The notes beneath the pieces were generated by a model. The model made no database searches. It was given only the letters and a program-made list of their open reading frames with translations, and was not told where the DNA came from. From a bacterium (lineage in GTDB: Bacteria > Patescibacteriota > Minisyncoccia > Phycocordibacterales > UBA2100), in NCBI GenBank assembly GCA_030698935.1, contig JAUYLR010000062.1, positions 1-10,899 of the forward strand: a stretch of DNA of 10,899 nt, read 5' to 3'. Positions 1-9,803 of this stretch are shown here, in pieces; the stretch's first letter is position 1; every line of letters starts with the position of its first letter. Position numbers and translations under genes: made by a program.

Positions 1-28
1 CTTCGTGCTTCGTGCTTCGATTCTTCAA
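1..28. repeat. 7-bp quasi-tandem tract before gltX
   Basis: Two exact CTTCGTG units are followed by a third beginning CTTCG and a fourth, decayed unit. The tract ends 6 nt before the gltX ATG at 35. It may continue left of the window. It belongs to the set of 7- and 9-bp-period tracts described under findings. Confidence 0.6.
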
Positions 29-34
29 ATCATT

Positions 35-1384
35 ATGAGTAATGTCCGTGTCCGCATTCCGCCGAGTCCGACGGGGTACTGCCACGTGGGAACCGCGCGG
101 ATGGCGGTAATCAATTATCTGTTCGCAAAAAAGAACGGCGGCACGATCGTATTCCGGAGCGAAGACACGGATAAAGAGCGCAGTACCAAAGAGTATGAGA
201 CGGACATCATGGATTCTTTGCACTGGCTCGGTCTTACGTGGGATGAATTCTACCGGCAATCCGAACGAACGGATGTATACCGCGGAGCTCTGCACACACT
301 GGTAGATTCCGGACACGCGTATGTTTCCGAAGAGGAAAGCAAAAAAGAGGCGGGGAAAATGATGCGCGTCGTCCGCCTGAAGAATCCCGGCTCCACGATT
401 ACATTTACCGATATGATACGCGGTGATATCACGTTTGATACGGCGGAACTCGGTGATTTCGTCATTGCGCGCAGCGTAGACGATGCGCTGTATCACTTCG
501 CCGTCGTTGTGGATGATGCCGCAATGAATATCACGCATGTCATCCGCGGGGATGACCATATCTCCAATACACCCCGTCAGATTCTGATACTGGAGGCGCT
601 GGGGTTTGAGCGCCCAAAATATGCCCATTATCCGCTGCTTTTAGGCGCCGATAAATCAAAACTCTCCAAGCGGACAGGGGATACATCGGTAAAAAGCTAT
701 CGGGACGCGGGATATCTTCCCGAGGCGTTTCTCAACTACATCGCCGTACTCGGCTGGACGCCCGCATCGCAGAGAGAAATCCTTTCACTCTCTGAAATGA
801 TTAACGAGTTTGATGTGAAAGACCTGCATAAAAGCGGGGCGGTGTTTGATATGGAAAAACTGCGCTGGTTTAACCGGCAGTATCTCACCGGCATGCCGCG
901 GGATGAATTTGCAAAGTCAGCGCTCGCAATCATGGAAGAGGCTGTTAGTAAACGCGGATTACGGTGGAGCTCTGAAACGGGCGCGCATCTGATTGAGATG
1001 CTTCGCGAGAGAATTTCCGTTTGGGAAGACGTTCGTCTTCTGACATCAGAAGGGGAACTGGACTATTTCTTTAAGGACCCGGCGTACGAGGCCGCTTTGA
1101 TTCCCGGCAAGCAGGGCTCGCCTGAATCGGCACAAAAACATTTGAACGCTCTTCTCCAAATTGTTGCAGGCATTTCCGGAAGCGAATTCGCACATCCGGA
1201 AACGATAAAGGCGCGCATCTGGGATTACGCGGCCAAAGAGGGGACCGGTGCGGTGCTGTGGCCGTTCCGTTTTGCGCTCACGGGGTTGGCACGCTCGCCG
1301 GACCCGTTCTTTGTCGCTTCGGTTCTTGGGAAAGATACGGTCCTTAAACGCATATCTGCCGCACTCTCCGCGCTTAGAGTATGA
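35..1384 (+). CDS. gltX: glutamyl-tRNA synthetase
   Basis: This class I aminoacyl-tRNA synthetase attaches glutamate to tRNA-Glu in the cytoplasm. In the 449-aa product, PSPTG at residues 10-14 runs into the HIGH-type signature H17-V-G19. The family block VIRGDDHISNTPRQ lies at about 169-182, and the KMSKS equivalent KLSKR is at 209-213. The C-terminal part is the helical anticodon-binding region. The length is slightly below the usual 460-490 aa. I see no Cys-rich zinc motif in the acceptor-binding insert. The ATG at 35 is chosen because MSNVRVRIPPSPTG matches the family N-terminus; the GTG at 5 would add ten residues encoded by a tandem repeat. There is no Shine-Dalgarno. The stop overlaps the next gene's start in an ATGA. 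CPR bacteria often lack GlnRS, so the enzyme may also charge tRNA-Gln for GatCAB amidation; that is an inference. Confidence 0.96.
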   Translation: MSNVRVRIPPSPTGYCHVGTARMAVINYLFAKKNGGTIVFRSEDTDKERSTKEYETDIMDSLHWLGLTWDEFYRQSERTDVYRGALHTLVDSGHAYVSEEESKKEAGKMMRVVRLKNPGSTITFTDMIRGDITFDTAELGDFVIARSVDDALYHFAVVVDDAAMNITHVIRGDDHISNTPRQILILEALGFERPKYAHYPLLLGADKSKLSKRTGDTSVKSYRDAGYLPEAFLNYIAVLGWTPASQREILSLSEMINEFDVKDLHKSGAVFDMEKLRWFNRQYLTGMPRDEFAKSALAIMEEAVSKRGLRWSSETGAHLIEMLRERISVWEDVRLLTSEGELDYFFKDPAYEAALIPGKQGSPESAQKHLNALLQIVAGISGSEFAHPETIKARIWDYAAKEGTGAVLWPFRFALTGLARSPDPFFVASVLGKDTVLKRISAALSALRV

Positions 1385-2664
1385 GGCGTGCTTCGCGGAA
1401 ATGTGCTGCGCTTTTTGTCGCGGCGATTATTGTTCCCGGTTTGGCATTCGCTCAATCCGCGGAGGAATTGCAGCAGCAGATAGACGAGCAGAATTCCCAA
1501 ATCGCGGCGCTGAACAAGGAAATTGCGGAATATCAGGCGCAATTGGACGCCACATCCAAAAAGAAACAGACCCTTCAAAATGAATTGGCGCAATTGAATA
1601 TTTCTCTAAAGAAAATCACGGCATCAATCACCGTGACAAAAAAGCAGATCAGTTCAACCCAGCTTCAAATACAGCAGTTGGCGAGCGGCATTCATACCAA
1701 GGAGGCCTCTATCAGCGGATACCGCGCATCCCTCGGAGAGTCCTTGAGAAGCTTGAACCGGACCGAGAATGTGCCGTTCGCGGAGTCGTTGCTTTCTTCG
1801 GATTCCATTTCAGAAGCGTGGAATGACGCGGACGCAATCGCCCTGCTTCAATCCGCCGTGCAGGATGATATCAGGCGGCTGGCCGGCGAAAAAGAAGACC
1901 TCACCAAAACAAAGACCGTCGCGGAGCAGAAGCGCGAACAGCTTCTTAAACAACAGAAAACGCTTGTCGTACAGCAGGGCTCGCTTGATGCCACGGTAAA
2001 GGCGCAAAAAGAACTGTTGGCACAAACAAAGTCGCAGGAATCAACCTACCAGAGCATTATCGCGCAGAAAAAAGCGCAGGAAGCCGCATTTGAACAGGCA
2101 TTGAGCGACTTGCAGTCAAGATTGCAATACATAGTCAATCCGGACGAAATACTGAAGGCCGGTAAAGGAATTATTAAGTGGCCTTTGGACGTTATTAGAA
2201 TTACCCAGCATTTCGGCGATACGGCGTTCGCGAAGGCGGGCGGATACAACGGCAAAGGCCATAATGGAATTGACCTTGCGGCGCAAATCGGAACCCCCGT
2301 TAAGGCGGCGCTGTCAGGGGTCGTTGTCGGCACCGGCAACACGGATTCTGTCAGGGGCTGTTATTCATTCGGCAAATGGGTGCTCATTCAGCATAATAAC
2401 GGACTGGATACTATGTACGCGCACTTTTCACAAATCGCTGAAGGCATCTCGGCCGGGCAACCCGTCGGCACGGGGCAGGTGATAGGGTACAGCGGACAAA
2501 CAGGATATGCGACCGGCCCCCACCTGCACTTCGGCGTATACGTATCCTCTGCGACGCAGATTATGAAACTGGGGGATGCGACCAATAAAAAGTCTCCGTG
2601 CTCCAGTGCCATGATGCCGATTGCACCTCTGTCTGCCTATCTGAATCCGGAGAACTACTTGTAG
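1381..2664 (+). CDS. secreted coiled-coil M23 murein hydrolase (EnvC-like)
   Basis: A 427-aa exported cell-wall protein. Residues 1-24 form a signal peptide: basic N-terminus, hydrophobic core, and a likely cleavage after AFA before Gln25. Two long coiled coils, about 26-110 and 160-250, are rich in Gln, Lys and Ala. The C-terminal part, from about 270, is a peptidase M23 (LytM) domain. The metal site looks intact: H294 and D298 (HNGID), H348 (YAH) and H381-L-H383 (HLHFG). Loss of these residues marks EnvC-type activators, so this one is probably an active zinc endopeptidase cleaving peptidoglycan cross-links, with the coiled coil as regulator. The start codon shares ATGA with the gltX stop, which suggests translational coupling. 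The final codons and the stop lie in a CTTGTAG word that begins the repeat tract downstream. Confidence 0.92.
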   Translation: MRRASRKCAALFVAAIIVPGLAFAQSAEELQQQIDEQNSQIAALNKEIAEYQAQLDATSKKKQTLQNELAQLNISLKKITASITVTKKQISSTQLQIQQLASGIHTKEASISGYRASLGESLRSLNRTENVPFAESLLSSDSISEAWNDADAIALLQSAVQDDIRRLAGEKEDLTKTKTVAEQKREQLLKQQKTLVVQQGSLDATVKAQKELLAQTKSQESTYQSIIAQKKAQEAAFEQALSDLQSRLQYIVNPDEILKAGKGIIKWPLDVIRITQHFGDTAFAKAGGYNGKGHNGIDLAAQIGTPVKAALSGVVVGTGNTDSVRGCYSFGKWVLIQHNNGLDTMYAHFSQIAEGISAGQPVGTGQVIGYSGQTGYATGPHLHFGVYVSSATQIMKLGDATNKKSPCSSAMMPIAPLSAYLNPENYL

Positions 2665-2696
2665 AAAGCCTGTAGCTTGTAGCCAGCAGCCTGTAG
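2658..2696. repeat. 7-bp quasi-tandem tract (CCTGTAG word)
   Basis: CTTGTAG at 2658-2664 holds the stop codon of the M23 gene. After a 4-nt offset come four 7-bp units at 2669-2696. The first and last are exactly CCTGTAG, and the middle two (CTTGTAG, CCAGCAG) are variants. A near-copy in the same register lies inside a coding sequence at 4563-4590. Confidence 0.75.
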
Positions 2697-2731
2697 CAAG
2701 AAATTCAAGTGGGCGATACTCAGCGTTTGAG

Positions 2732-2758
2732 ATATTGAAACATTGCAAACTGATTGCC
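2732..2758. repeat. 9-bp quasi-tandem tract (ATTGAAA/ATTGCAAA words)
   Basis: Three 9-bp units carry ATTGAAA, ATTGCAAA and ATTGCC in steps of nine. The tract stops just before the GC-rich palindrome at 2757-2786. A second tract with the same ATTG word lies on the other side of that palindrome. Confidence 0.5.
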
Positions 2759-2786
2759 CTCCGGAGGAGGGTCCGCCCTTGGCGGA
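2757..2786. repeat. double GC-rich palindrome, REP-like
   Basis: Two adjacent hairpins. The first is the perfect palindrome CCTCCGGAGG at 2758-2767. The second has the stem TCCGCC (2772-2777), loop CTT and GGCGGA (2781-2786). It is followed by A rather than T on the + strand, so it is not a textbook terminator for the M23 gene. Read on the minus strand, it also lacks a downstream T tract for the gene at 2812. It lies between two convergent genes and may still end transcripts through structure alone. Confidence 0.55.
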
Positions 2787-2789
2787 AAA

Positions 2790-2817
2790 ATTGCAAATTG
2801 ATAATTGAAAATTACTT
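2790..2817. repeat. 7-bp quasi-tandem tract (ATTGAAA word)
   Basis: Four consecutive 7-bp units begin with ATT: ATTGCAA, ATTGATA, ATTGAAA, then a decayed one. The last unit covers the stop codon (2812-2814) and the final Lys codon of the minus-strand gene, so the repeat reaches into coding sequence. Confidence 0.65.
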
Positions 2818-3453
2818 CCTCGGGTCCCGCCACTCTGTATTATTGATAGCCTTCACTTCCACTTCTGATGCTTTGCGGAGTTGTGCGATTACTTTTCTTG
2901 GCGCGACATCATAGTGCCTGCTGTCATCAAGCGCATCTACAAGCCAGAACAAATCTTCTTCCGCCACAGCCCACAGGGCGGGGGAGTACCGGCGCAGGTC
3001 AAAGGCTTTGGAAAATCGACGTAATGATTTTGTTCCATCATCCATCATGTACTCGTGAAAATATGACATCGCAAGTTCGCGGACGCTTTTGTACACGGGG
3101 TCCCTGTATCGCAGGATGGGGTGATTCGTTTTGCTTATTGCGCCCCATAAACCATTCTGTCTAAAGAGCGCGACGACATGGTCCTCATCGCGGTCTATCG
3201 TCACGAGGTCCAGCAAAAGCGGTTTCTGCCCGTGATAAGAAAATGCCGCGGCCGCCAAGAGCGCGCCTTCAAAACAGTGCGCTGTGTGTTCGCGTATTAC
3301 CCGTCTCGGCGACATGTACGTTTCTCCTGCCGTTTCAAAATTAATCGGGAGCGTGTCCAGATAATCTTGAATCTTTTTGGGAGAATTAAGTGCGGCAAAG
3401 ACTGTGCGTTCCGGAGGGGAGAGTACGGCTTTCAATCTTTGCCGGTAGGTCAT
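2812..3453 (-). CDS. transglutaminase-like cysteine protein
   Basis: A 213-aa cytoplasmic protein without a signal peptide. The middle resembles the papain/transglutaminase fold: C60 in HCFEGAL at a helix start, H92 in EDHVVALF, and N110 in GAISKTN in the place of the third catalytic residue. I recall this arrangement (SPRRV, then HC.EGA, then DHV, then WGAI.K.N and a Met-Ser-Tyr-Phe block) from a conserved family of uncharacterised bacterial and archaeal proteins; no search was run. The substrate is unknown. The start is placed at ATG 3453, where similarity begins; the frame stays open to TTG 3540, but that extension is mostly encoded by a repeat tract. TACTAT ends 7 nt before the ATG and could be a weak -10. 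It is convergent with the M23 gene. Confidence 0.8.
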   Translation of the reverse strand: MTYRQRLKAVLSPPERTVFAALNSPKKIQDYLDTLPINFETAGETYMSPRRVIREHTAHCFEGALLAAAAFSYHGQKPLLLDLVTIDRDEDHVVALFRQNGLWGAISKTNHPILRYRDPVYKSVRELAMSYFHEYMMDDGTKSLRRFSKAFDLRRYSPALWAVAEEDLFWLVDALDDSRHYDVAPRKVIAQLRKASEVEVKAINNTEWRDPRK

Positions 3454-3495
3454 TGGGTCAATAGTACTACAGGGTCGCGAGTGGCCGGTTGTATT

Positions 3496-3542
3496 TGTAA
3501 AACAATTACAACAAGGCGTAAGCCGATACAACATGTACAACA
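3496..3542. repeat. 9-bp quasi-tandem tract (TACAACA word)
   Basis: Two 9-bp units, TGTAAAACA and ATTACAACA (3496-3513), then an 11-nt break, then GATACAACA and TGTACAACA (3525-3542). The tract lies upstream of the transglutaminase-like gene and is partly translated if that gene is started at TTG 3540. Confidence 0.65.
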
Positions 3543-3628
3543 GTTAATGCGGCGCTGCGTGCTAATGACCCGCGGTAAGTCAATCCAATATATCGTGCGG
3601 TGGTACATAAAGTAGCGGCCACGCTCGC

Positions 3629-3665
3629 GTCTTTGCGAGGAGCCGAAGGCAACGAAGCAATCTAG
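3629..3665 (+). repeat. REP-like element, copy 1
   Basis: A 37-bp element begins GTCTTTGCGAGG and ends CGAAGCAATCTAG. It carries the same two conserved ends as the pair at 3849-3925. Elements of the type TTGCGAGG...GAAGCAATCT are familiar to me as dispersed intergenic repeats in many unrelated bacteria. I see no transposase beside it. Confidence 0.75.
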
Positions 3666-3848
3666 CGGGACATGTTACAGAATCTTTGCGTCCTATCCGT
3701 ATCCCTGTTCCGCAGGAATTCTCGGTGTCCGAGATAGCTCGCTATTACTGGCTATTATCGTGGACTCGGTTTGACGAGATTCTCTCTTAAGTTGTTCTAT
3801 ACGACGGAGTAGCCATTGTTGAAAAAGTACTTATGCAACTTCTGAATT

Positions 3849-3925
3849 GTCTTTGCGAGGCTTTGCCGAAGCAATCTAGGGTTAGGGCCGTAGAACCTGG
3901 ATTGCTTCGCTCCACTCGCAAAGAC
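3849..3925. repeat. REP-like inverted pair forming a long hairpin
   Basis: Copy 2 (3849-3880, direct) and copy 3 (3896-3925, inverted) face each other. GTCTTTGCGAG pairs with CTCGCAAAGAC at the base. CGAAGCAATC pairs with GATTGCTTCG above an internal bulge, and the pairing extends by about four more positions, one of them a wobble. The loop is about 15 nt. This is the BIME-like arrangement of REP elements. It may act as a transcription boundary ahead of the surface-protein remnant. Confidence 0.8.
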
Positions 3926-3972
3926 GGAAAGCGCGGTTTTACGCTGTCTTTTAAAGTTCTTGCGTAGGTCCT

Positions 3973-4262
3973 ATGATAATTGGAGATTCCATTCCCATTG
4001 GTCCAAAGAGCATATATGGCCTAATCCTGTTAAGAAGCAGCGTGGATAGGAGCCTTAACGATGTCGCTTATGTCTTATCCACAGTTTGCACACAGGTAAT
4101 CCACAAACACCCGAGCAGGCAGATTGATGCCGTCAGGTCAGACCTTGAATCTATCTCTGCGCAAAGCTCCGGCGAGACAGGGTCCTTCGCAGAAAGATTC
4201 TTCTCCAATATCTTCGCCCGTATTACACAGTGGCTCGCGGATGCCACAAATGGGGTGGGGGG
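3973..4262 (+). pseudogene. frame-shifted upstream piece of surface protein
   Basis: This frame is open from the stop at 3952 and reads to a stop at 4387-4389, but only its later part looks like protein of a known kind. Residues FFSNIFARITQWLADATNGVGGV (4196-4264, in two blocks FFSNIFARITQ and WLADATNGV) resemble the segment before the C-terminal domain of large CPR surface proteins. The natural continuation, FARAFHAKEEICV, is in the next frame. The switch falls at the run of six G at 4257-4262, and removing one G joins the frames. The first 50 or so residues match nothing I know, and no signal peptide is seen, so the true 5' end of the gene is probably missing. Confidence 0.6.
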
Positions 4263-4912
4263 TGTTTGCGCGCGCATTCCATGCCAAAGAAGAAATCTGC
4301 GTGGACGACCAGTGCCTTACCAAGGAAGACGTGCGAGCGCTCATCGTTCTTGCGCGCGCGCAAACGGCGAGCGCCGCCGGTACCACTGACTTGGCGGTTG
4401 AACCGCCAAGTAGCACGACGACAACCGCAAGCGGCGCTCCGATAATTGCCGTGCAGGGAAATAATCCGGCGAACATCAATGTGGGCGACACCTACGGAGA
4501 TTTGGGAGCAATCATTACGGGCCCAACGCAAGAAGATACAAACCTTGGAATCCACGCAGAAGCCTGTAGCTCGCAGCCGGTAGCCTGTAGCCAATTTGAC
4601 TCTCCCGAACTCGTCACACTTGATACGAGTACTCCGAACGAATTCACAATTACATACAGCGCGACCAATCAGGCAGGAGAGACCGGCTACGCGGAGCGGG
4701 TGGTAAATGTTCTCGCGCCTTTGAGTGCGGTTGTTGATTCAACCGCGACCCCGATACCATCCTCCGACCCCGGTACTACAGCAGGAGCTGACTACGGGGC
4801 AGGTGGAGGAGCTACGGGGCAGGCTTCCACGAGCGAAACCGGAGGAGACACGGATTCAACAAGTTCACCGCAGGCCGCCACCGACACAACGGCAACATCA
4901 ACGACACCGTAA
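4250..4912 (+). CDS. C-terminal part of surface protein with DUF5011-like domain
   Basis: A 220-aa product if started at ATG 4250; the frame is open back to ATG 4124, but that part reads against the coding frame of the upstream piece. It begins FARAFHAKEEICVDDQCLTKED, a Cys-x4-Cys segment (read as FARAFHAKEEICV then DDQCLTKED) typical of the region before the tail of CPR surface proteins. From about residue 65 comes a DUF5011/HYR-type Ig-like domain (GNNPANINVGDTYGDLGA ... DTSTPNEFTITYSATNQAG). The last 65 or so residues are Ser/Thr/Ala/Gly-rich with no membrane anchor. With the upstream frame it would be one gene broken at a G run. A 7-bp repeat tract at 4563-4590 is translated inside the Ig-like domain (CSSQPVACS). 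Whether any product is made is unknown. Confidence 0.65.
   Translation: MGWGVFARAFHAKEEICVDDQCLTKEDVRALIVLARAQTASAAGTTDLAVEPPSSTTTTASGAPIIAVQGNNPANINVGDTYGDLGAIITGPTQEDTNLGIHAEACSSQPVACSQFDSPELVTLDTSTPNEFTITYSATNQAGETGYAERVVNVLAPLSAVVDSTATPIPSSDPGTTAGADYGAGGGATGQASTSETGGDTDSTSSPQAATDTTATSTTP
4563..4590. repeat. CCTGTAG 7-bp tract inside a coding sequence
   Basis: Four 7-bp units, the first and fourth exactly CCTGTAG. It matches the intergenic tract at 2669-2696 at 24 of 28 positions in the same register, with the same flanking AG before and C after. The length of 28 is not a multiple of three, yet the frame stays open through it. Confidence 0.75.
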
Positions 4913-4932
4913 GAAGATTTGACTCTATAATG

Positions 4933-4941
4933 TGCTATACT
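4933..4941 (+). promoter_or_regulatory. extended -10 promoter for hicBA
   Basis: TG-C-TATACT is an extended -10 element ending 7 nt before the hicB ATG at 4949, so transcription would begin at or next to the start codon. There is no good -35 at 17 nt. A second -10-like TATAAT lies at 4926-4931. HicB-type antitoxins usually repress their own promoter, but no clear operator palindrome is visible here. Confidence 0.5.
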
Positions 4942-4948
4942 GTCGCGT

Positions 4949-5194
4949 ATGAAGTCGCAATCACATAGGATGCCTCTCTCTTCGTTCGCAGTTGAATTTG
5001 ACCGCGAAGAAGATGGTCGTTGGATTGCCGAAATCCCTCGGCTTCCAGGCGTTATGGCCTATGGTACCACCAAGCGTGACGCCTTGCGGCATGTGTACGC
5101 TATCGCACTCCGGACGCTTGCCGACACGGTAGAGGAAGGTAATACGCCTGCTCCGGTCTCACGTCTTTTCCGGTATGGAGTGGCGAGCCGTTAA
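4949..5194 (+). CDS. hicB: HicB-family antitoxin
   Basis: An 81-aa antitoxin of a type II toxin-antitoxin pair. The core FAVEFDREEDGRWIAEIPRL followed by PGVMAYG is the characteristic HicB partial RNase H-like fold (residues 13-39), followed by the helix TKRDALRHVYAIALRTLADTV in two parts (41-50, 51-61). The family role is to bind and mask HicA and often to repress the operon. There is no separate C-terminal DNA-binding helix-turn-helix or ribbon-helix-helix domain, so it is a short HicB. The start at 4949 is supported by the promoter 7 nt upstream; ATG 4970 (MPLSSFAVEF) is the alternative. The 3' end overlaps hicA by 20 bp, which fits coupled translation. Confidence 0.88.
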   Translation: MKSQSHRMPLSSFAVEFDREEDGRWIAEIPRLPGVMAYGTTKRDALRHVYAIALRTLADTVEEGNTPAPVSRLFRYGVASR

Positions 5195-5384
5195 GGCCAC
5201 GCGGGTACTGAAGGCGTTGCTACGTTCCGGTTGGAATATAAAACGTCAAAGAGGTTCGCACAGGATTCTTACAAAAGCGGAGTGGCCCGATGTCACTTTT
5301 GCTTTCCATGATTCGGAGGAGATAGGTCCGCGCATGCTTTCGCGTATCGGGAAGCGCACTGGCCTTACTCCCGAACAGCTTTAG
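5175..5384 (+). CDS. hicA: HicA-family toxin (mRNA interferase)
   Basis: A 69-aa protein with the compact double-stranded-RNA-binding-like fold of HicA: RVLKALLRSGW, then KRQRGSHRIL with the catalytic-type H29 in Gly-Ser-His, then a strand TFAFHD, and the C-terminal helix PRMLSRIGKRTGLTPEQL. HicA toxins cleave mRNA and tmRNA when free of HicB. Length and end (GLTPEQL) are normal for the family, so the toxin looks intact. The order is antitoxin first, as in many short hicBA loci. The stop codon at 5382-5384 sits directly on the start of a surface-protein remnant in another frame. Confidence 0.88.
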   Translation: MEWRAVKATRVLKALLRSGWNIKRQRGSHRILTKAEWPDVTFAFHDSEEIGPRMLSRIGKRTGLTPEQL

Positions 5385-5568
5385 CGCCGCAGGTACGCAC
5401 GAGATTCTATTCAGCGCGACAGACCAAGCAGGGAACACCGGCACGGCGACACGGACGGTAATAGTAGAAGCCACCGCGGACGTAGTTGCCACCGAGGAAG
5501 CAACCACGATTGTTGCCGATGAAGCCGCCTCAACTCCGGTGAGCGAGGCCGCTACATCCGCCCCCTAA
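5383..5568 (+). pseudogene. remnant of a second surface-protein C-terminus
   Basis: Reading from AGC at 5383 in frame 1 gives SAAGTHEILFSATDQAG, then NTGTATRTVIVEAT, then an Ala/Thr/Glu-rich tail ending at TAA 5566-5568. This is the last part of a DUF5011/HYR-type Ig-like domain plus a low-complexity tail, closely parallel to the end of the protein encoded just before hicBA (TITYSATNQAGETGYAERVV). No ATG or domain start precedes it, and the sequence to its left is hicA. It is therefore a 5'-truncated gene end, either left by a deletion or split off when the hicBA segment arrived. Confidence 0.75.
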
Positions 5569-5621
5569 AGGAGCCCCAGTCTAAGCCATTCGTGGGTTGG
5601 TAAAAATCGGGAGTTCGTATA

Positions 5622-6596
5622 TCACTCTTTGTCCATTTCCTTCCCGCCGTGAAATTTCTCATGGATATCTCTAAGCCGTTTGTTCGTAACGTGCGTATAT
5701 ATTTGAGTCGTTGCCACGTTTTTGTGTCCTAACAGCTCCTGAACGCTCCGCAGGTCTGCACCGTGCGATAACAGGTCTGTCGCATACGTGTGCCGCAGGG
5801 TATGGGGCGTAACCTTCTTTGAAATGCCCGCAAGCATCGCAGAACGGGATATCATGCGTTGAATATACCGCAGAGAGAGCCTGCAGTTGTCCGGATCTTT
5901 AGAACGGTGGTTTATGAAAAGGGGCTTGTATACGTCGCGCCTAGTATCAAGGTACGTCCGCAACCACTGTGCGGCTCGCGGCGAAATAAAAATAGTTCTC
6001 ACGTGCTTTCCTTTGCCGATAATGGAAAGTTCAAAAGTGCGTTTCGCGTTCTTGTCTTTAAGGAACGACATCTGGTCCGCATTGAGCGACGCCAATTCTG
6101 ATATACGCATTCCGGATGAAAAAAACAGCTCCATGATAGCGCGGTCGCGAATGCCAGCCGGCGTAGCGATATCGGGAACCTTGAGCATTCTCTCCACATC
6201 GCTCACCTCAAGAAATGAAACGACCTCGTCCGATTTCTGACGCGCCAATTTAACTTTGGAAGATGGGAGCGTAACGACATCGCGCTCGGCAAGAAAGCTC
6301 AAAAGGGCGCGCAGGGCGATAAGGTAGTAATTTTGGGACTTCTTTCCGAGGTATTCTTTCGCAGGCGTTTTATAGACCCTGGCGAGATAGAGCCGGTAAT
6401 CCCAAATATGCTTCGCCGTTAATTCATGGGGGAGGAGAGCGGAATTTTTGCTATGGTCTAGCCATTTAACAAAAAGTTGCAAGTATTGTCTGTAATTTCT
6501 CTGCGTATTATTTGATAATCCCTTCTCAATTTCACAGTAATCAAGAAACGGAAGTATGTACTCTCTGATAGGGAGGTCGCCGGATGCTGCGTTCAT
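5622..6596 (-). CDS. Xer-type tyrosine recombinase
   Basis: A 324-aa site-specific recombinase of the XerC/XerD/XerH class. The N-terminal SAM-like core-binding domain spans about 10-110 and the catalytic domain about 125-318. All catalytic residues are visible: R164 (SGMRISEL), K197 (GKGKHVR), H265 and R268 ([10 protein letters not shown]), H291 (LLGHKNV) and the nucleophile Y300 (TQIYTHV). The length is normal for Xer proteins and slightly long. The likely role is resolving chromosome dimers at a dif site; an integron- or phage-type role is less likely, as nothing mobile accompanies it. Which Xer it is cannot be told from sequence alone. It is transcribed towards the surface-protein remnant. 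A TGA-TAAAAT extended -10 lies 6 nt before the ATG. Confidence 0.92.
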
Positions 6597-6602
6597 AGGG
6601 CA

Positions 6603-6631
6603 ATTTTATCACACAGAGCTCGTGCGCACAA
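6603..6631 (-). promoter_or_regulatory. candidate promoter of the Xer recombinase gene
   Basis: On the minus strand TAAAAT (6603-6608), preceded by TGA as an extended -10, ends 6 nt before the ATG. TTGTGC (6626-6631) lies 17 nt further upstream as a weak -35. The -35 overlaps the perfect 8-bp palindrome GTGCGCAC (6622-6629), a possible operator. Confidence 0.45.
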
Positions 6632-6711
6632 TATACGTAAAACGGACCAGTGGGTATACACATTAGGACACATAAGCGTCAACTCGCTTCCCCGAGTCAC
6701 ATTACAATGCG

Positions 6712-6806
6712 CTGGCCTTATATGCTTATCGCGTCTTCCCTCGGACGAAATGCCAGCAAGCTGTCGTTTCGAATCCTCGTTAGACGCGATAAGCACATAA
6801 GGCCAG
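6712..6806. repeat. 95-nt near-perfect inverted repeat (MITE-like or structured RNA)
   Basis: Two 25-bp arms (6712-6736 and 6782-6806) are complementary at 24 positions. The arms start CTGGCCTTAT and end GGCCAG. The 45-nt loop is itself structured: CGAAA (about 6745-6749) pairs with TTTCG around an inner CAGC-AA-GCTG hairpin. No transposase, target duplication or reading frame explains it. It lies between the divergent-facing 5' end of the Xer gene and the 3' end of the next minus-strand gene. Confidence 0.85.
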
Positions 6807-6905
6807 GAAACATTTGGCGTAAGAAAATAAATGAAATATTCTTCAGTCAAACAAATTCTTCAGGCCGCAGGGGAGGGGCTTCATGTACACATGGGTCAAC
6901 GGAGC

Positions 6906-7388
6906 CTACATCCCCTGCCCTACGCGTGCCGGTCGTATGCATTCCAATGTAAACCTCTTTGCACCAAATAACTTACTAACGTGGGCCTTTTCTTCTTTGG
7001 ACATTTCTTTAAATTCCGTGGCTAGGATTTGGATGAGCAACTCTTTGCCGTCGTCCCCATGATGCCTAGGACCTGTCCAATGCCTACTGTTCCATCGGTC
7101 TACCTCAAGTTCGCACTCAATCAAACCATCTTCATAAAATCTGACATGATATTCATTTACCCCAGTATCGGTGATAGGAATTCTTTTGATTAACCCTGCT
7201 GTCTGTCCCGGAAACACAAGTTGCCATGTAGTCCTTCTGAATCCTATCGCCCTAAGACCTTTAAAAAAGATCTTCTGATAGTGATGGTGCGGTGCGTGGC
7301 CGAAATATCCAAAAAAGATTCTGGGCATTAATAGCGCACAAGGATATTTTGTAGTTCCATACAAAAAATCTGCGATATAGGTAATCAT
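6906..7388 (-). CDS. uncharacterised protein
   Basis: A 160-aa protein that I do not recognise. The N-terminal part is aromatic and hydrophobic (MITYIADFLYG, RIFFGYFGHAP) with a His cluster APHHHYQK. The middle is predicted to be beta-rich (EYHVRFYEDGLIECELEVDR), and the C-terminus is charged and helical (EFKEMSKEEKAHVSKLFG). There is no signal peptide or clear membrane segment. It follows the exonuclease gene by 11 bp on the same strand, so it is likely co-transcribed. The ATG at 7388 is preferred; TTG 7409 would overlap the exonuclease by 10 bp. GGAG lies only 1 nt before the ATG, too close to act as a normal ribosome binding site. Codon use looks more AT-rich than in its neighbours, which may hint at later acquisition. 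Confidence 0.65.
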   Translation of the reverse strand: MITYIADFLYGTTKYPCALLMPRIFFGYFGHAPHHHYQKIFFKGLRAIGFRRTTWQLVFPGQTAGLIKRIPITDTGVNEYHVRFYEDGLIECELEVDRWNSRHWTGPRHHGDDGKELLIQILATEFKEMSKEEKAHVSKLFGAKRFTLECIRPARVGQGM

Positions 7389-7399
7389 GCTCCGGCACG

Positions 7400-7990
7400 T
7401 TAATTCCAAGGAATCGGGAATTCTTCAAATTCGGGCAAAAGTTTTCGTCCATACAAAAGCCGCGCGATTACTTCCGCATGCGACAACGCGCCCGTGAGCG
7501 CATTGTGCGGGGCCGGTTCTTCTGGGATCCCGCAATAATTGAGAACCGCGTCCAAATCAAGAGCGGAACGGCGATGCTTTACCGGAGGTTGAATCCCCCG
7601 CTGTATGTGGTGCATGTAGGCAAGCGTGTGCGTATCTATTGTGCGATATGCAAATTGCCAGTCGGTGTGACCGGCGCGCTCCGCGGCCGCTTTCAGAAAA
7701 TCGCGGTCAAACGAAACGTTTTGCCCCGCCAGTGTCCTCTCCTCTACCCCCTCGCTCCAGTGCAAGAACGCATGTATAAGGTCGCCCTCGCTTTGTTTCT
7801 TAGAGTCAGTAATTTGTGCCTTTGTAAATCCGTTCACCGCAAGCGCCTCGTCCATAATATGCGCGCCGTCCCACACGCGGCACTCTTCATAAAATCGGTT
7901 GGTCGGGTTCGCAAAGTCCAACGCGCCCACAGACACGATGGAGTGTTTTTTTGCTTCTACACCGGAAGCTTCAACGTCTACAACCAACAT
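7400..7990 (-). CDS. DnaQ-like 3'-5' exonuclease (DEDDh family)
   Basis: A 196-aa single-domain exonuclease. Exo I is D5-x-E7 (VVDVEASG), Exo II is D95 (GQNVSFDRDF), and Exo III contains H162 (PHNALTGA). The family removes nucleotides from 3' ends using two metal ions; this could be a proofreading subunit, an RNase T-like enzyme or a repair nuclease. One oddity: the fourth acidic residue expected five positions after the His (H..L.D) is G167. That may weaken catalysis or mark a subfamily. I recall similar HNAL.GA segments in other CPR proteins but could not check. It heads a two-gene unit with the unknown protein downstream. Confidence 0.85.
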   Translation of the reverse strand: MLVVDVEASGVEAKKHSIVSVGALDFANPTNRFYEECRVWDGAHIMDEALAVNGFTKAQITDSKKQSEGDLIHAFLHWSEGVEERTLAGQNVSFDRDFLKAAAERAGHTDWQFAYRTIDTHTLAYMHHIQRGIQPPVKHRRSALDLDAVLNYCGIPEEPAPHNALTGALSHAEVIARLLYGRKLLPEFEEFPIPWN

Positions 7991-7992
7991 AT

Positions 7993-8028
7993 TGTTCTAG
8001 TCGTTCAAAATGTTCTAATTGTTCTAAT
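7993..8028. repeat. 9-bp quasi-tandem tract (TGTTCTAAT word)
   Basis: Four 9-bp units in exact register. The last two are identical TGTTCTAAT, the first is TGTTCTAGT and the second is a decayed CGTTCAAAA. The tract begins 2 nt upstream of the exonuclease start codon, so it forms that gene's leader or promoter region. Confidence 0.8.
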
Positions 8029-8044
8029 CGGCTTTTTCGTATAG

Positions 8045-8080
8045 AACGTTTATAACGAATATAACGATTATAACTCATTT
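8045..8080. repeat. 9-bp quasi-tandem tract (AACGATTAT word)
   Basis: Four 9-bp units each start with AAC: AACGTTTAT, AACGAATAT, AACGATTAT and a decayed last unit. The last unit contains the stop codon (8075-8077) of the minus-strand gene. With the neighbouring TGTTCTAAT tract it fills nearly the whole 84-bp gap between two genes. Confidence 0.8.
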
Positions 8081-8437
8081 AAGTCCCTTGCAATTCTTGG
8101 CGGGCGCATAGCCTGCCTGACGGGCTTTTTCTTCGCTCGCGAACCAAATTTGATTTTGCGGGGCAATCTTGGCGGCCGACGCGCACCACGGGAAATAGTA
8201 GGCGCTCCCCGTGCGCGAGGCCACAATAAGTCCGCCTATATTCATACCGCGCGGTTCCGCGATCGTAGGCGCATTCGTGATGGATACGGGCGGCCGAACC
8301 GTTTCTAATACTGAAAGGCGCCCTAATCCGAACGAGCCCAAAGCGACCAAGAGCACAACAAGGAGCAGTCCCCATTCCCCTACCGCAATATCGGCCCAAT
8401 TCTTGATTTTGAGCCACGCTTCCTGTATACTCGCCAT
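8075..8437 (-). CDS. one-pass membrane protein with Ada-like metal-binding tail
   Basis: A 120-aa protein with a short cytoplasmic or amphipathic N-terminus (1-20), one transmembrane helix at about 22-40 (WGLLLVVLLVALGSFGLG), a linker, and a C-terminal domain (70-120) resembling the zinc-binding domain of Ada: SAYYFPWC, then KIAPQNQIWFASEEKARQAG, then YAPAKNCKG. Only C85 and C116 are present, so metal binding with two Cys is uncertain. In Ada that domain repairs methylphosphotriesters; here, tied to the membrane, the role is unknown. Small proteins of this shape recur in CPR genomes as I recall them. The start at ATG 8437 follows a TAAAAT 7 nt upstream; the frame stays open to 8539, but that part is repeat-encoded. 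Confidence 0.75.
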   Translation of the reverse strand: MASIQEAWLKIKNWADIAVGEWGLLLVVLLVALGSFGLGRLSVLETVRPPVSITNAPTIAEPRGMNIGGLIVASRTGSAYYFPWCASAAKIAPQNQIWFASEEKARQAGYAPAKNCKGLK

Positions 8438-8444
8438 ACTCGTG

Positions 8445-8450
8445 ATTTTA
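8445..8450 (-). promoter_or_regulatory. -10 element of the Ada-like gene
   Basis: TAAAAT on the minus strand ends 7 nt before the ATG at 8437. No good -35 is seen. The spacing matches the other putative leaderless starts in the window. Confidence 0.35.
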
Positions 8451-8467
8451 CATGAATTCCGGGCCCT

Positions 8468-8502
8468 ATACGAGATACAAGATACTAAATACACGATACT
8501 AA
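8468..8502. repeat. 7-bp quasi-tandem tract (ATACTAA word)
   Basis: Five 7-bp units in exact register, each starting ATAC; the third and fifth are identical ATACTAA. The tract ends 4 nt before the rpmA ATG and lies between two divergent genes. The units look like -10 elements (GATACT, TACTAA), so the tract may provide several weak promoters for rpmA. Confidence 0.85.
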
Positions 8503-8506
8503 TCTT

Positions 8507-8779
8507 ATGGCCCATACAAAAGCAGGAGGAACAGCGCATAACCTGAATGATTCAAATCCGAAGTATCTCGGCGTTAAGCGCGCCGACGGCCAGAAAGTGG
8601 GCGTTGGCGAAATTATCGTCCGCCAGAGAGGGACAAGGATTCTCCCCGGCAAGAATATCGGCGTGGGCACTGACCACACGCTTTTTGCGATGTCTGCAGG
8701 CGTCGTTCATTTTCGCTCAAAAAGAAAGACGGATTTTGACGGACGCTCTAACGTCCGCAGAGTCGTGGACGTGGTTTAG
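8507..8779 (+). CDS. rpmA: large ribosomal subunit protein bL27
   Basis: A 90-aa protein of the 50S subunit whose N-terminal arm reaches the peptidyl-transferase centre. The start [12 protein letters not shown] and the core [18 protein letters not shown], then [16 protein letters not shown], are diagnostic. It lacks the cleaved N-terminal extension seen in Firmicutes. The usual partner rplU (bL21) is not upstream and obgE is not downstream, so the gene stands alone. There is no Shine-Dalgarno before the ATG, only the ATAC-word tract. Confidence 0.97.
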
Positions 8780-8817
8780 AGCACATCTAAAAACCACACC
8801 TACTTCGTTGCGGAGCC

Positions 8818-8890
8818 CCCGCCGTCGCTGAAGCTATGGCGGGCAAGTCTGCTTTTACGCTACGTCCTCCGAAGCCTTTGGCGAAGGAGG
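8818..8890. repeat. two GC-rich imperfect hairpins, REP-like
   Basis: The first hairpin has stem CCCGCC (8818-8823) and GGCGGG (8838-8843) with GCT-GA-AGC nested in the loop. The second has CCTCC (8866-8870) and GGAGG (8886-8890) enclosing GCC-TTT-GGC with mismatches between. Together they fill the gap between the convergent rpmA and rplI. Similar CCTCC.../GGCGG hairpins occur at 2757-2786. Confidence 0.6.
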
Positions 8891-8915
8891 GCGCCTCGCA
8901 TCTGATTGAGTACAA

Positions 8916-8938
8916 TCACCTACTGGGTGGGACTTTTT
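8916..8938 (+). terminator. weak terminator after rpmA
   Basis: A short stem CACC (8917-8920) and GGTG (8926-8929) with a T-G extension, then GAC and TTTTT (8934-8938). The hairpin GATTG-AGTA-CAATC (8904-8917) precedes and competes with it. It would serve rpmA transcription running towards rplI. Confidence 0.35.
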
Positions 8939-8947
8939 CAGCAGTTT

Positions 8948-9391
8948 TCAAATAGCAATAATATCAATCGTTGCCATCACTCGGTGCAACCCCAGTTTTA
9001 TTTCTACCTGCTCCTTCCCTGTTTTGTAAATCGGCACCTTCAACGTAACGGCGTCCTCCCCCACTGCGGACTGATATTTCTTGTTAATTTCTTTTGCAAT
9101 TTTCTCTGCGGTGATGTGCTCATATAAATGCCCTTTCTCGTTCGCGCGCACTTTGAAAACAATCGGTTCCACAGCCAGTTTCTCTGCAACCCGCTTGTAC
9201 TGTGTATCCCGGCTCTGCGCCTCTGCCTGTTGGACCGCTTTCCTGCCCTCGCTCGCCTTGAGGTTCGTGGCAATTGCCTCGTGCGCCAATCCGCGAGGAA
9301 TCAAAAAGTTGAGCGCATATCCGTCGGCCACCTCTTTGACGGTATCCTTCTTCCCTACCCCGCCCACGTCTTTGAGTAAAATTACCTGCAT
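8948..9391 (-). CDS. rplI: large ribosomal subunit protein bL9
   Basis: A 147-aa 50S protein that binds 23S rRNA near the L1 stalk base. The N-domain [36 protein letters not shown] (read as [15 protein letters not shown] and [14 protein letters not shown]) is diagnostic; a long connecting helix (about 42-75) and a C-terminal domain follow at full family length. It stands alone, without the usual rpsF, ssb or rpsR neighbours. Presence of bL9 is of taxonomic use, since I recall its loss being reported in Microgenomates and some other CPR lineages. A 7-bp repeat tract starts 1 nt upstream of the ATG. No Shine-Dalgarno is seen. Confidence 0.95.
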
Positions 9392-9392
9392 A

Positions 9393-9420
9393 TTTAGTAG
9401 ATCGTAATCTGTAGTCCGTA
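9393..9420. repeat. 7-bp quasi-tandem tract (nnnnGTA word)
   Basis: Four 7-bp units all end in GTA (TTTAGTA, GATCGTA, ATCTGTA, GTCCGTA). The tract begins at the rplI start codon and lies in the gap towards the divergent coiled-coil gene. Confidence 0.65.
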
Positions 9421-9444
9421 GAAATGCAACCTGTTGTGCAAAAG

Positions 9445-9474
9445 TTGCTGCGTATCCCTGTGCGGTGATATAAT
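9445..9474 (+). promoter_or_regulatory. sigma-70-type promoter of the coiled-coil gene
   Basis: TTGCTG (9445-9450), an 18-nt spacer, and TGA-TATAAT (9466-9474) as an extended, perfect -10. The hexamer ends 7 nt before the ATG at 9482, so transcription should begin at the start codon. This is the clearest promoter in the window. Confidence 0.65.
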
Positions 9475-9481
9475 CCAGAGT

Positions 9482-9754
9482 ATGGCAAAGGCAAAGCGTA
9501 TAAAGGAGGATAAGCTCGACAAGATTGCGCGGCTTATAAAAAGTGAGTCAGATGACGTGCGTAATGAAATAAAGAACGTACACAATGAAATAAAAAGTGA
9601 GTCAGCTGACATACGCAATGAAATAAAGAAACTTGAACAGAAAGTTGATCTTGGGTTTATGGGTGTAAACCGTCGTATCGATGGAACTATCCAGCCACAG
9701 CTTGATAATCATGCATTTCGAATCAAAAAGCTAGAAACAAAAGCACTTTCTTAA
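9482..9754 (+). CDS. small coiled-coil protein with 18-aa repeats
   Basis: A 90-aa hydrophilic protein, probably all helical and oligomeric. Residues 20-37 ([18 protein letters not shown]) are repeated at 38-55 ([18 protein letters not shown]), and the motif NEIK occurs three times. The last third ([23 protein letters not shown], given as [12 protein letters not shown] and HAFRIKKLE) continues the coil. The function is unknown; similar short coiled coils are common in CPR genomes as I recall them. There is no signal peptide or membrane segment. The ATG at 9482 is chosen because the promoter lies directly upstream; an in-frame ATG at 9434 lies before the -35. At DNA level the repeat is 54 bp, with 32 of the first 36 bases matching, which indicates a recent duplication. 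Confidence 0.75.
9541..9648 (+). repeat. 54-bp tandem duplication within the coiled-coil gene
   Basis: Unit 1 (9541-9594) and unit 2 (9595-9648) share AAGTGAGTCAG and AATGAAATAAAGAA, with only four differences in the first 36 bases, then diverge. The unit is 18 codons, so the reading frame is kept and one coil segment is added. Confidence 0.75.
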
Positions 9755-9768
9755 TTTGAGCCTATTTC

Positions 9769-9803
9769 CTGTTAACTGTTTACTATAAACTGTTAACTAG
9801 TTC
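9769..9803. repeat. 7-bp quasi-tandem tract (CTGTTAA word)
   Basis: Five 7-bp units in register all begin CT; the first and fourth are exactly CTGTTAA. The third unit contains the stop codon (9783-9785) of the minus-strand peptidase, whose last residues Val-Asn-Ser-Leu are encoded by the tract. Confidence 0.8.

Follow-up and report, generated by a model that had tools for sequence, protein, structure and literature searches.

Degenerate short-period tracts at gene junctions of a Patescibacteriota genome as probable ends of small mobile elements associated with IVP genes

The window considered here, a stretch of 10,899 nucleotides, is one contig (JAUYLR010000062.1) of a 111-contig assembly (GCA_030698935.1) of a bacterium of the phylum Patescibacteriota, the genome being 69% complete. 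It carries, among others, gltX, an M23 peptidase gene, an Ada-like gene (its Pfam match is below the cut-off), an exonuclease gene, rpmA and rplI, and short tracts of degenerate repeat units lie between or within its protein-coding frames (Table 1). These tracts, called arms where they form the two ends of one structure, and their connection with genes of the family PF05635 (23S_rRNA_IVP, IVP, S23p; hereafter IVP genes) are the subject of this analysis. The original prediction, made from the sequence alone, listed eleven tracts with a period of 7 or 9 bp. Each was scored at its claimed lag against 3000 second-order Markov pieces per length. No Markov piece equalled the tracts at 1-28, 2790-2817, 8468-8502, 7993-8028 and 8045-8080, and the fraction of pieces as good was 0.001 for 9769-9803 and 0.002 for 2669-2696, 4563-4590 and 3496-3542. 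Nine of the eleven tracts are thus well supported; the tract at 9393-9420 is weak (0.016), and 2732-2758 was rejected as a period-9 tract, with a fraction of 0.046 and a best lag of 11.

None of the tracts in the window is accompanied by an IVP gene. Read on the minus strand, the interval between the Ada-like and exonuclease genes consists of the Ada-like stop, a left arm, a short spacer, a right arm and the exonuclease ATG, that is, a mini element without a gene. An inverted partner of the tract at the M23 peptidase gene was looked for and none was found.

Table 1. Short-period tracts of the window
Feature	Coordinates	Strand	Position and remarks
Right-arm-type tract, word CTTCGTG	1..28	+	Clipped by contig start; just before gltX start at 35
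Left-arm-type GTAGCNN tract	2667..2697	+	Directly 3' of M23 peptidase gene stop; solo arm
AATTGNN tract	2787..2813	-	At stop of minus-strand gene 2812-3540; tested as 2790-2817
Weak period-9 tract	3496..3542	-	Near start of minus-strand gene 2812-3540
GTAGCNN tract	4561..4592	+	Inside open frame 4124-4912 (Ig-like domain protein)
Right arm, period 9, of gene-less mini element	7991..8028	-	Same mini element as 8038..8082; abuts exonuclease ATG at 7990
Left arm, period 9, of gene-less mini element	8038..8082	-	Ada-like gene stop side
Right-arm-type ATACNNN tract	8468..8502	+	Abuts rpmA start at 8507; gene name from the original prediction and by reading
Weak right-arm-type tract, CTACNNN on minus strand	9393..9420	-	Abuts rplI start at 9391; gene name from the original prediction
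CTGTTAA tract, largely self-complementary (by reading)	9769..9803	.	Between convergent stops 9754 and 9783

Segments scoring at least 12 were counted at lags 2 to 24 in the window plus 27 contigs, together 171,378 bases. There were 27 segments at lag 7, 24 at lag 14, 6 at lag 9, 4 at lag 21, 2 at lag 18 and one each at lags 15 and 20, with none at any other lag, against a mean of at most 0.5 segments per lag in two shuffled sets. The autocorrelation check proposed with the original prediction thus gave an excess at lags 7 and 9 in this genome, other lags, multiples aside, not being equally enriched. Of the six lag-9 segments, the window contributes two, and another (L021 4167) resembles a coding repeat. 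At a lower threshold, 123 tracts were collected from 41 sources (288,877 bases; hereafter the 289 kb sample), some of the period-9 tracts again resembling coding repeats; 13 contigs among these sources had been picked for TGTAGC matches. The units are degenerate, a core being kept while the remaining positions vary. Pure arrays exist too: long pure TATAGCG arrays were observed at L040 1-76 and L033 3157-3217, one of them at a contig end, so that arms may break assemblies and be under-counted. The claim that every tract has a different word holds for neighbouring gaps, and fails across the genome, where GTAGC, GTAT, AGCG and CGAAATC recur at several loci. With at most one mismatch, GTAGCNNGTAGCNNGTAGC is present in 20 of 60 genomes including this one (21+20), and reaches 26+26 in the nearest relative, G023 (about 75% DNA identity over matches above 300 bases); the reversed GTAGCNNGTAGCNNGTAGC control gave one match in each of two genomes and none elsewhere.

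What had escaped the original prediction is that many tracts form inverted pairs, some of which enclose a gene. In the six GTAGC-family cases read first, a reverse array lies some 30-55 bp beyond the forward one. The pair test, with a local shuffle and a direct-repeat control, covered 120 of the 123 tracts, three under 18 bases being left out. An inverted partner within 110 bp was found at the 1% level or better for 46/101 period-7 and 7/19 period-9 tracts, against a direct partner for 10/101 and 0/19, respectively. This test replaced a z-score version, in which the null was drawn from the same tract-rich genome and only 8/123 tracts reached a z of at least 3.

Some tract pairs are spaced about 350-480 bp apart. 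Six wider intervals were inspected, one of which (L036) contained no pair. Three of the five true wide pairs enclose four-helix-bundle genes belonging to PF05635; of the other two, one encloses a GIY-YIG gene and then an apparent IVP gene end, and one nothing clear. The genome contains six genes of PF05635, a family hitherto known chiefly from inserts within rRNA genes, compared with none in 14 control genomes. Each of them lies between arms, of period 7 in five cases and of period 9 in the sixth, and an inverted repeat of at least 18 of 24 positions was found across the gene at 6/6 loci. The open frames have 123-154 codons, and the product matches PDB 2gsc (XCC0516, five chains) with an E value of 1.3e-18. 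TIGR02436 was matched by all five IVPs scanned, two of which also gave weak matches, below the cut-off, to the Avd model NF033474. XCC0516 is described as a ring of five four-helix bundles (PMC4990558, PMC10053308). At L011 1794-2342, the GIY-YIG gene has its own inverted repeat inside the heptad arms and is followed by a remnant resembling an IVP end, apparently an insert within an insert; among the four GIY-YIG matches in the genome, it alone has clear arms.

A PF05635 gene is present in 28/40 genomes of the genus, this one included, and in 161/286 of a phylum sample. Flanks were compared in three sets of loci: the own and genus set (the six own loci and 29 of 70 other genus matches, 35 in all), a named-phyla set (the best 80 of 581 candidates, less L124, which lies at the same place as L098, leaving 79) and the 30 best loci of the phylum sample (Candidate Phyla Radiation, CPR). 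A lag-7 tract in either flank was found at 27/35 loci of the own and genus set, against 11/175 pseudo-genes, at 58/79 named-phyla loci, against 24/395 controls, and at 23/30 CPR loci, against 11/150. The inverted repeat across the gene was found at 29/35, 63/79 and 26/30 loci, against 1/175, 8/395 and 4/150, respectively. When all loci were measured in one common way, with other open reading frames (ORFs) as a real-gene control, the inverted repeat was present at 101/144 IVP loci, which come from many phyla (own and genus 29/35, named phyla 46/79, CPR 26/30) and at 7/201 other ORFs, and a lag-7 tract in either flank, a less sharp measure, at 103/144 and 55/201; here the IVP flanks were taken from the family match and those of other genes from the ORF ends, and the own-contig part of the control still includes IVP genes.

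The dominant period at the 144 IVP loci is 7 at 105, 8 at 16, 9 at 6 and 15 at 5, the lag 15 in L226 being read as an alternation of 7 and 8. Lag 8 is enriched in the named-phyla set (16/79 versus 14/395). The restriction to just two periods is therefore true of the own genome, with 7, 9 and their multiples, and untrue elsewhere, where period 8 and lag 15 occur beside IVP genes. In four further genomes, a period-7 tract lies no more than 110 bp away, on one side or both, at 11 of 13 PF05635 matches. Ten genomes were picked because their IVP arms have AGT cores; the AGT period-7 pattern exceeds the reversed control in all ten, with 223+200 versus 7+7 in G352 and, at the least, 14+21 versus 13+13 in G357. 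Arrays of GGGAATC were found in 1/369 genomes of a sample of the gammaproteobacterial class (G724), whose only PF05635 match (positions 1-64 of 106) has GGGAATC arms and lies between accB and accC (names by reading).

The placement at gene edges was borne out, the left arm lying close to the stop of the preceding gene and the right arm close to the start of the following one. Measured from the left arm start, the upstream stop fell between -8 and +12 in 71/93 cases (searched from -60 to +25); measured from the right arm end, the downstream start fell between -12 and +18 in 84/99 (searched from -12 to +80), both counts being given without a random control; for 20/113 left and 16/115 right arms, the junction codon was not found within the search range. 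IVP elements with arms and both neighbours are co-directional with both neighbours in 88/114 cases, versus 61/111 other gene triples. In the own-genome sample, tracts occupy 40/150 co-directional, 5/40 convergent and 6/39 divergent gaps. Arms apparently inside open frames were also observed, at L011 1457-1568 and L037 6612-6645 (both by reading) and at window 4561-4592; in G023 the counterpart of the first has one array only, and that of the second is absent.

Gaps were compared with G023 for 100 tracts, 23 of the 123 being left out for scores under 10. Among the 52 tracts that could be placed, the syntenic gap in G023 held the same word in 16, another tract in 23 and no tract in 13. The cut for the same word was 16 of 20; four rows of the 'other tract' class score 15 and a fifth is too short to score, so that some of the 23 may carry the same word, and the 52 rows include four period-9 tracts, which look like coding repeats or are very short. 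Where one gap here contains an IVP element, G023 has a gene-less element of a different word; another gap is free of tracts here and holds a GTAGC mini element in G023. A G023 tract is present in 16/25 gaps with an own tract versus 6/37 without, so the same junctions seem to be reused. Among the gaps of the window, the M23 gene gap holds only an AATT-type tract in G023, a type also present here at 2787..2813, and the exonuclease gap has period 9 here versus a period-7 TAGCCAC tract there. The ATACNNN word before rpmA is kept in G023, with other words or nothing in other species; upstream of rpmA, in 19 of 39 matching genomes read, seven have a tract scoring at least 8, with differing words and one locus clipped. 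A tract follows the M23 gene in 3/14 genomes read. Such differences between species probably reflect movement of the tracts with the elements that they bound.

Gene-less pairs outnumber IVP copies in the own-genome sample and share words with them. Arms of the own IVP genes match a mean of 5.9 further tracts in the 289 kb sample, with at least one match for 9/10 arms. The means in the same sample are 4.64 for IVP arms from the genus (26/33 arms), 1.61 for other CPR (11/44) and 0.70 for other phyla (29/107). The tract at 1-28 of the window belongs to one such word family, CGAAGCA/TTTCGGA (also matched as CGAAGCA/TTTCGTG), which has two-armed members elsewhere in the genome and flanks the IVP gene of L084. 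Word sharing of this kind is expected of a gene-bearing parent and its gene-less derivatives, and the mini elements would accordingly derive from IVP parents; as in miniature inverted-repeat transposable elements (MITEs), they are short, gene-less and multi-copy, with inverted ends common with a gene-bearing element. The arms of IVP elements also have a strand bias, 88/113 left arms being G-rich and 92/115 right arms C-rich. The bias is weaker in own-genome pairs, where the first arm is G-rich in 15, C-rich in 10 and equal in 4, and the second C-rich in 18 and G-rich in 6. For periods 7, 8 and 9, arms have median lengths of 27-39 bp (about 31 bp at period 7 and 35-39 bp at period 9), and a fixed count of five units, one per subunit of the pentamer, is unsupported by these lengths.

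Taken together, these observations make it very probable that the tracts are the ends of small mobile elements at gene junctions, of the type of the intervening sequences (IVS) of rRNA and their IVP genes, accompanied by mini elements and solo arms. A full element would consist of a left arm of about 4-5 degenerate units, a four-helix-bundle IVP gene and an inverted right arm of the same word; in a mini element, about 0-100 bp would replace the gene, and a solo arm would be the remnant after loss of one side. Its site would mostly be a junction of co-directional genes, with the left arm towards the upstream stop and the right arm towards the downstream start, and slippage may add and even out units inside an arm. 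A decayed mobile element, one of the causes suggested originally, is thus the best-fitting of the options offered and yet too narrow, as gene-bearing copies exist and syntenic arms differ.

Several results weigh against the tracts being ends of IVP elements. Reading of elements by eye, without a family search, revealed no transposase, recombinase or reverse transcriptase in them, and neither a target-site duplication nor a clean strain-level empty site was seen, the relative, at about 75% identity, being too distant for a duplication to be read. An arm period is missing at 12/144 IVP loci; neither a period nor an inverted repeat is seen at five genus loci (L109 and L112-L115, of which the last three score under the family cut-off); among the four further genomes, L339 has no period-7 tract within 110 bp and L340 (below the cut-off) has period-9 tracts. 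Enrichment of lag 9 is absent in the named-phyla set (6/79 versus 21/395). A lag-7 tract in a single flank is common near other own genes (41/130), and GTAGCNN, the commonest own word, flanks 0/6 own IVP genes in the 69% complete assembly. Agreement of words with the IVP tree, from which 5/144 loci with a stop were left out, is clear only between proteins more than about 70% identical, whose outer flanks often resemble each other too, and period follows the tree weakly (20 changes against a shuffled mean of 23.2, with 5/300 shuffles as low). Neither word nor period was therefore retained as a stable trait of IVP clades, the word holding among close proteins only.

Alternatively, the arms may be kept for pairing in the transcript, as a stem cut by RNase III, a terminator or a device of translation control. 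Folded as RNA, 15 mini elements gave z values of -1.67 to -7.62, the period-9 mini element of the window being the weakest (-1.67), and 12/15 folded better than all 200 shuffles; the known 23S IVS is excised by RNase III (PMC4990558), and the placement from stop to start between mostly co-directional genes would suit a transcript feature. If transcript pairing were selected, G-U should outnumber A-C mismatches; on the gene strand of 126 IVP loci, G-U pairs numbered 102 and A-C 118 (46 and 40 in CPR and own loci alone). Identity between the arms is 0.84 in the best register, a value raised by choosing the best, compared with 0.72-0.79 in shifted registers and 0.78-0.84 within an arm; as arms match barely better in register than one unit off, RNA pairing adds little. 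Both tests are against an RNA stem as the selected feature, and 36/52 syntenic gaps hold another tract or none, so that we regard an RNA device as improbable. The simplest reading is that the arms are two arrays of one word in opposite directions, and each may be a group of sites bound by a protein that works on the DNA of both element ends. The tracts could instead be bound by a factor of the host that controls translation or transcription, like the post-transcriptional regulator suggested for the TAACTGA repeats (PMC4679880); right-arm-type tracts do abut starts, including that of rpmA in several species. The word before rpmA, however, varies among species of the genus and is absent in some, and the words coincide with those of IVP elements, which leaves host factor sites a very slim chance.

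Slippage of a heptamer-prone polymerase in permissive intergenic DNA would require no element at all. Heptamers are the commonest long simple-repeat class in most genomes of one survey, for which a contact with the polymerase was offered as explanation (PMC4679880, PMC4692102), Coxiella strains vary in heptamer copy number (PMC4990558), and very long pure arrays occur in L033 and L040. The objection that ordinary slippage would not favour gene edges is sound within its limits, and slippage alone fails to explain why inverted pairs are frequent (46/101 versus 10/101 direct) and enclose one gene family, why distant loci have words in common, and why a unit core is kept while other positions vary; of all the explanations considered, it is the one we find hardest to credit. 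The remaining alternative is that the tracts are classical MITEs, moved by an unrelated transposase elsewhere, with the IVP gene as a passenger. The ends are inverted, gene-less pairs outnumber IVP copies, and the by-eye reading of the IVP elements recognised no mobility enzyme in them, although it involved no family search; the genes enclosed by the pairs read, however, are IVP genes, save one GIY-YIG gene within an apparent IVP element and one pair without a clear gene. We consider this alternative unlikely.

Among known systems, the 23S rRNA IVS of Coxiella, Leptospira and others is similar to the IVP elements described here in its terminal inverted repeats, optional gene of the S23p/IVP family and 7-bp repeats. 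In Coxiella it has a 28-bp inverted stem, an optional S23p gene and 7-bp repeats before the S23p start, in two or three sets depending on strain (PMC4990558). The 23S IVS lies in rRNA helices and is excised by RNase III, whereas the present elements lie between protein genes, many per genome, with unit-built arms on both sides and no RNA-pairing signature in the mismatch test. As the rRNA location does not apply, we classify them as IVS-like and distinct from the 23S IVS. Inserts in the 16S and 23S rRNA genes of CPR bacteria carry 23S_rRNA_IVP or GIY-YIG ORFs, with short ORF-less inserts as well (PMC11270868), and thus have hosts, ORFs and short forms in common with the elements here; that study covers rRNA genes, and the terms 'inverted repeat' and 'tandem' are absent from its main text. 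The GGGAATC repeats of Xanthomonas are degenerate 7-bp units, mostly four per tract and mostly intergenic, and two genomes contain 70 and 75 close inverted pairs; for these and related Nostoc repeats, the authors, who studied G-quadruplexes, generally saw no connection with mobile elements (PMC4692102). It is this Xanthomonas word that flanks the IVP gene of the gammaproteobacterial genome G724. The statement that no named element has this design thus needs qualification, as the Coxiella IVS combines 7-bp repeats with an inverted stem and GGGAATC forms inverted pairs. The TAACTGA repeats of Beggiatoaceae, cyanobacteria and Bacteroidetes are 7-bp units just upstream of starts, including those of ribosomal protein genes (PMC4679880); they are described as direct (one indirect), with binding of a regulator proposed, whereas the arms here are often inverted pairs. 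The BrickBuilt MITE of Porphyromonas gingivalis is also intergenic with tandem repeats, which are 23 bp units inside the element (PMC4596501), whereas here units of 7-9 bp form both ends. PF05635 and Avd of diversity-generating retroelements are described as homologous (PMC10053308). Avd systems have a reverse transcriptase and template and variable repeats; neither these repeats nor a reverse transcriptase was seen by eye in the elements read, and no dedicated search was made.

The tracts do not fit the definition of short tandemly repeated repetitive sequences (STRRs) or long simple sequence repeats (LSSRs) as a single direct array of a 7-mer, since their units are degenerate, about half of them are inverted pairs, and periods 8 and 9 occur. 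Cyanobacterial STRRs and the heptanucleotide repeats in P6b of the Nostoc tRNA-Leu intron are similar to the arms in that degenerate heptanucleotides lie on both sides of a hairpin, and differ in being known inside a group I intron. Repetitive extragenic palindromic (REP) sequences have a GTRG-hairpin unit and are associated with a Y1 transposase, the REP-associated tyrosine transposase (RAYT). A literature link between IVP genes and short-period inverted arms was sought in open-licence PMC, a collection outside which most subscription papers lie, and none was found, which does not prove its absence. The separate pieces are already in print.

The IVP may itself be the arm-binding protein or part of its machine, a suggestion we make tentatively and with more doubt than confidence. 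It is prompted by the IVP gene being the one most often found inside the arms; against it, word and period agree poorly with the protein tree, and words should follow that tree if the IVP were their reader. In a wider and more doubtful proposal, the IVP would be the mobility or end-recognition factor of mini elements across the domain, its five-subunit ring holding, on both element ends, arrays in which 4-5 sites follow one another every 7-9 bases, possibly with a reverse transcriptase acting in trans as for Avd; the heptamers of Xanthomonas, Beggiatoaceae and cyanobacteria would then be mini elements, and the 23S IVS a special landing place. IVP elements with such arms would give one explanation for several orphan facts, namely degenerate heptamers at gene edges, a pentameric S23p/IVP without a function, and the origin and movement of rRNA IVSs. 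They lead to the prediction that bacteria rich in intergenic 7-bp repeats have, or formerly had, IVP genes whose words match, and to the caution that heptamers close to starts or stops should not be taken as regulators before insertion has been excluded.

An Rfam scan of 11 sources, including six from the own genome (contigs or the window), gave no family at the gathering threshold. Other repeats and insert-like structures were observed in the same DNA. A hairpin family, TTTGCGAG...GAAGCAATC with its reverse complement, is present at window 3625-3665 and 3849-3926, with further copies in L087 and next to the L085 GIY-YIG gene, and may be another insert family. A pair of UPF0150-like (below the cut-off) and HicA genes at window 4949-5384 lies within 4124-5567 as if inserted, the frames on either side both resembling, by reading, parts of one Ig-like-domain protein. 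A third hairpin family is represented by a long inverted repeat around CCTTATATGCTTATCGCG at window 6709-6808, with a similar hairpin in L079 around 1670-1710, and a fourth repeated palindrome, a hairpin of the AAGGTGAGACCTT / AAGGTCTCACCTT type, occurs at L016 1851-1914 and L041 5125-5367.

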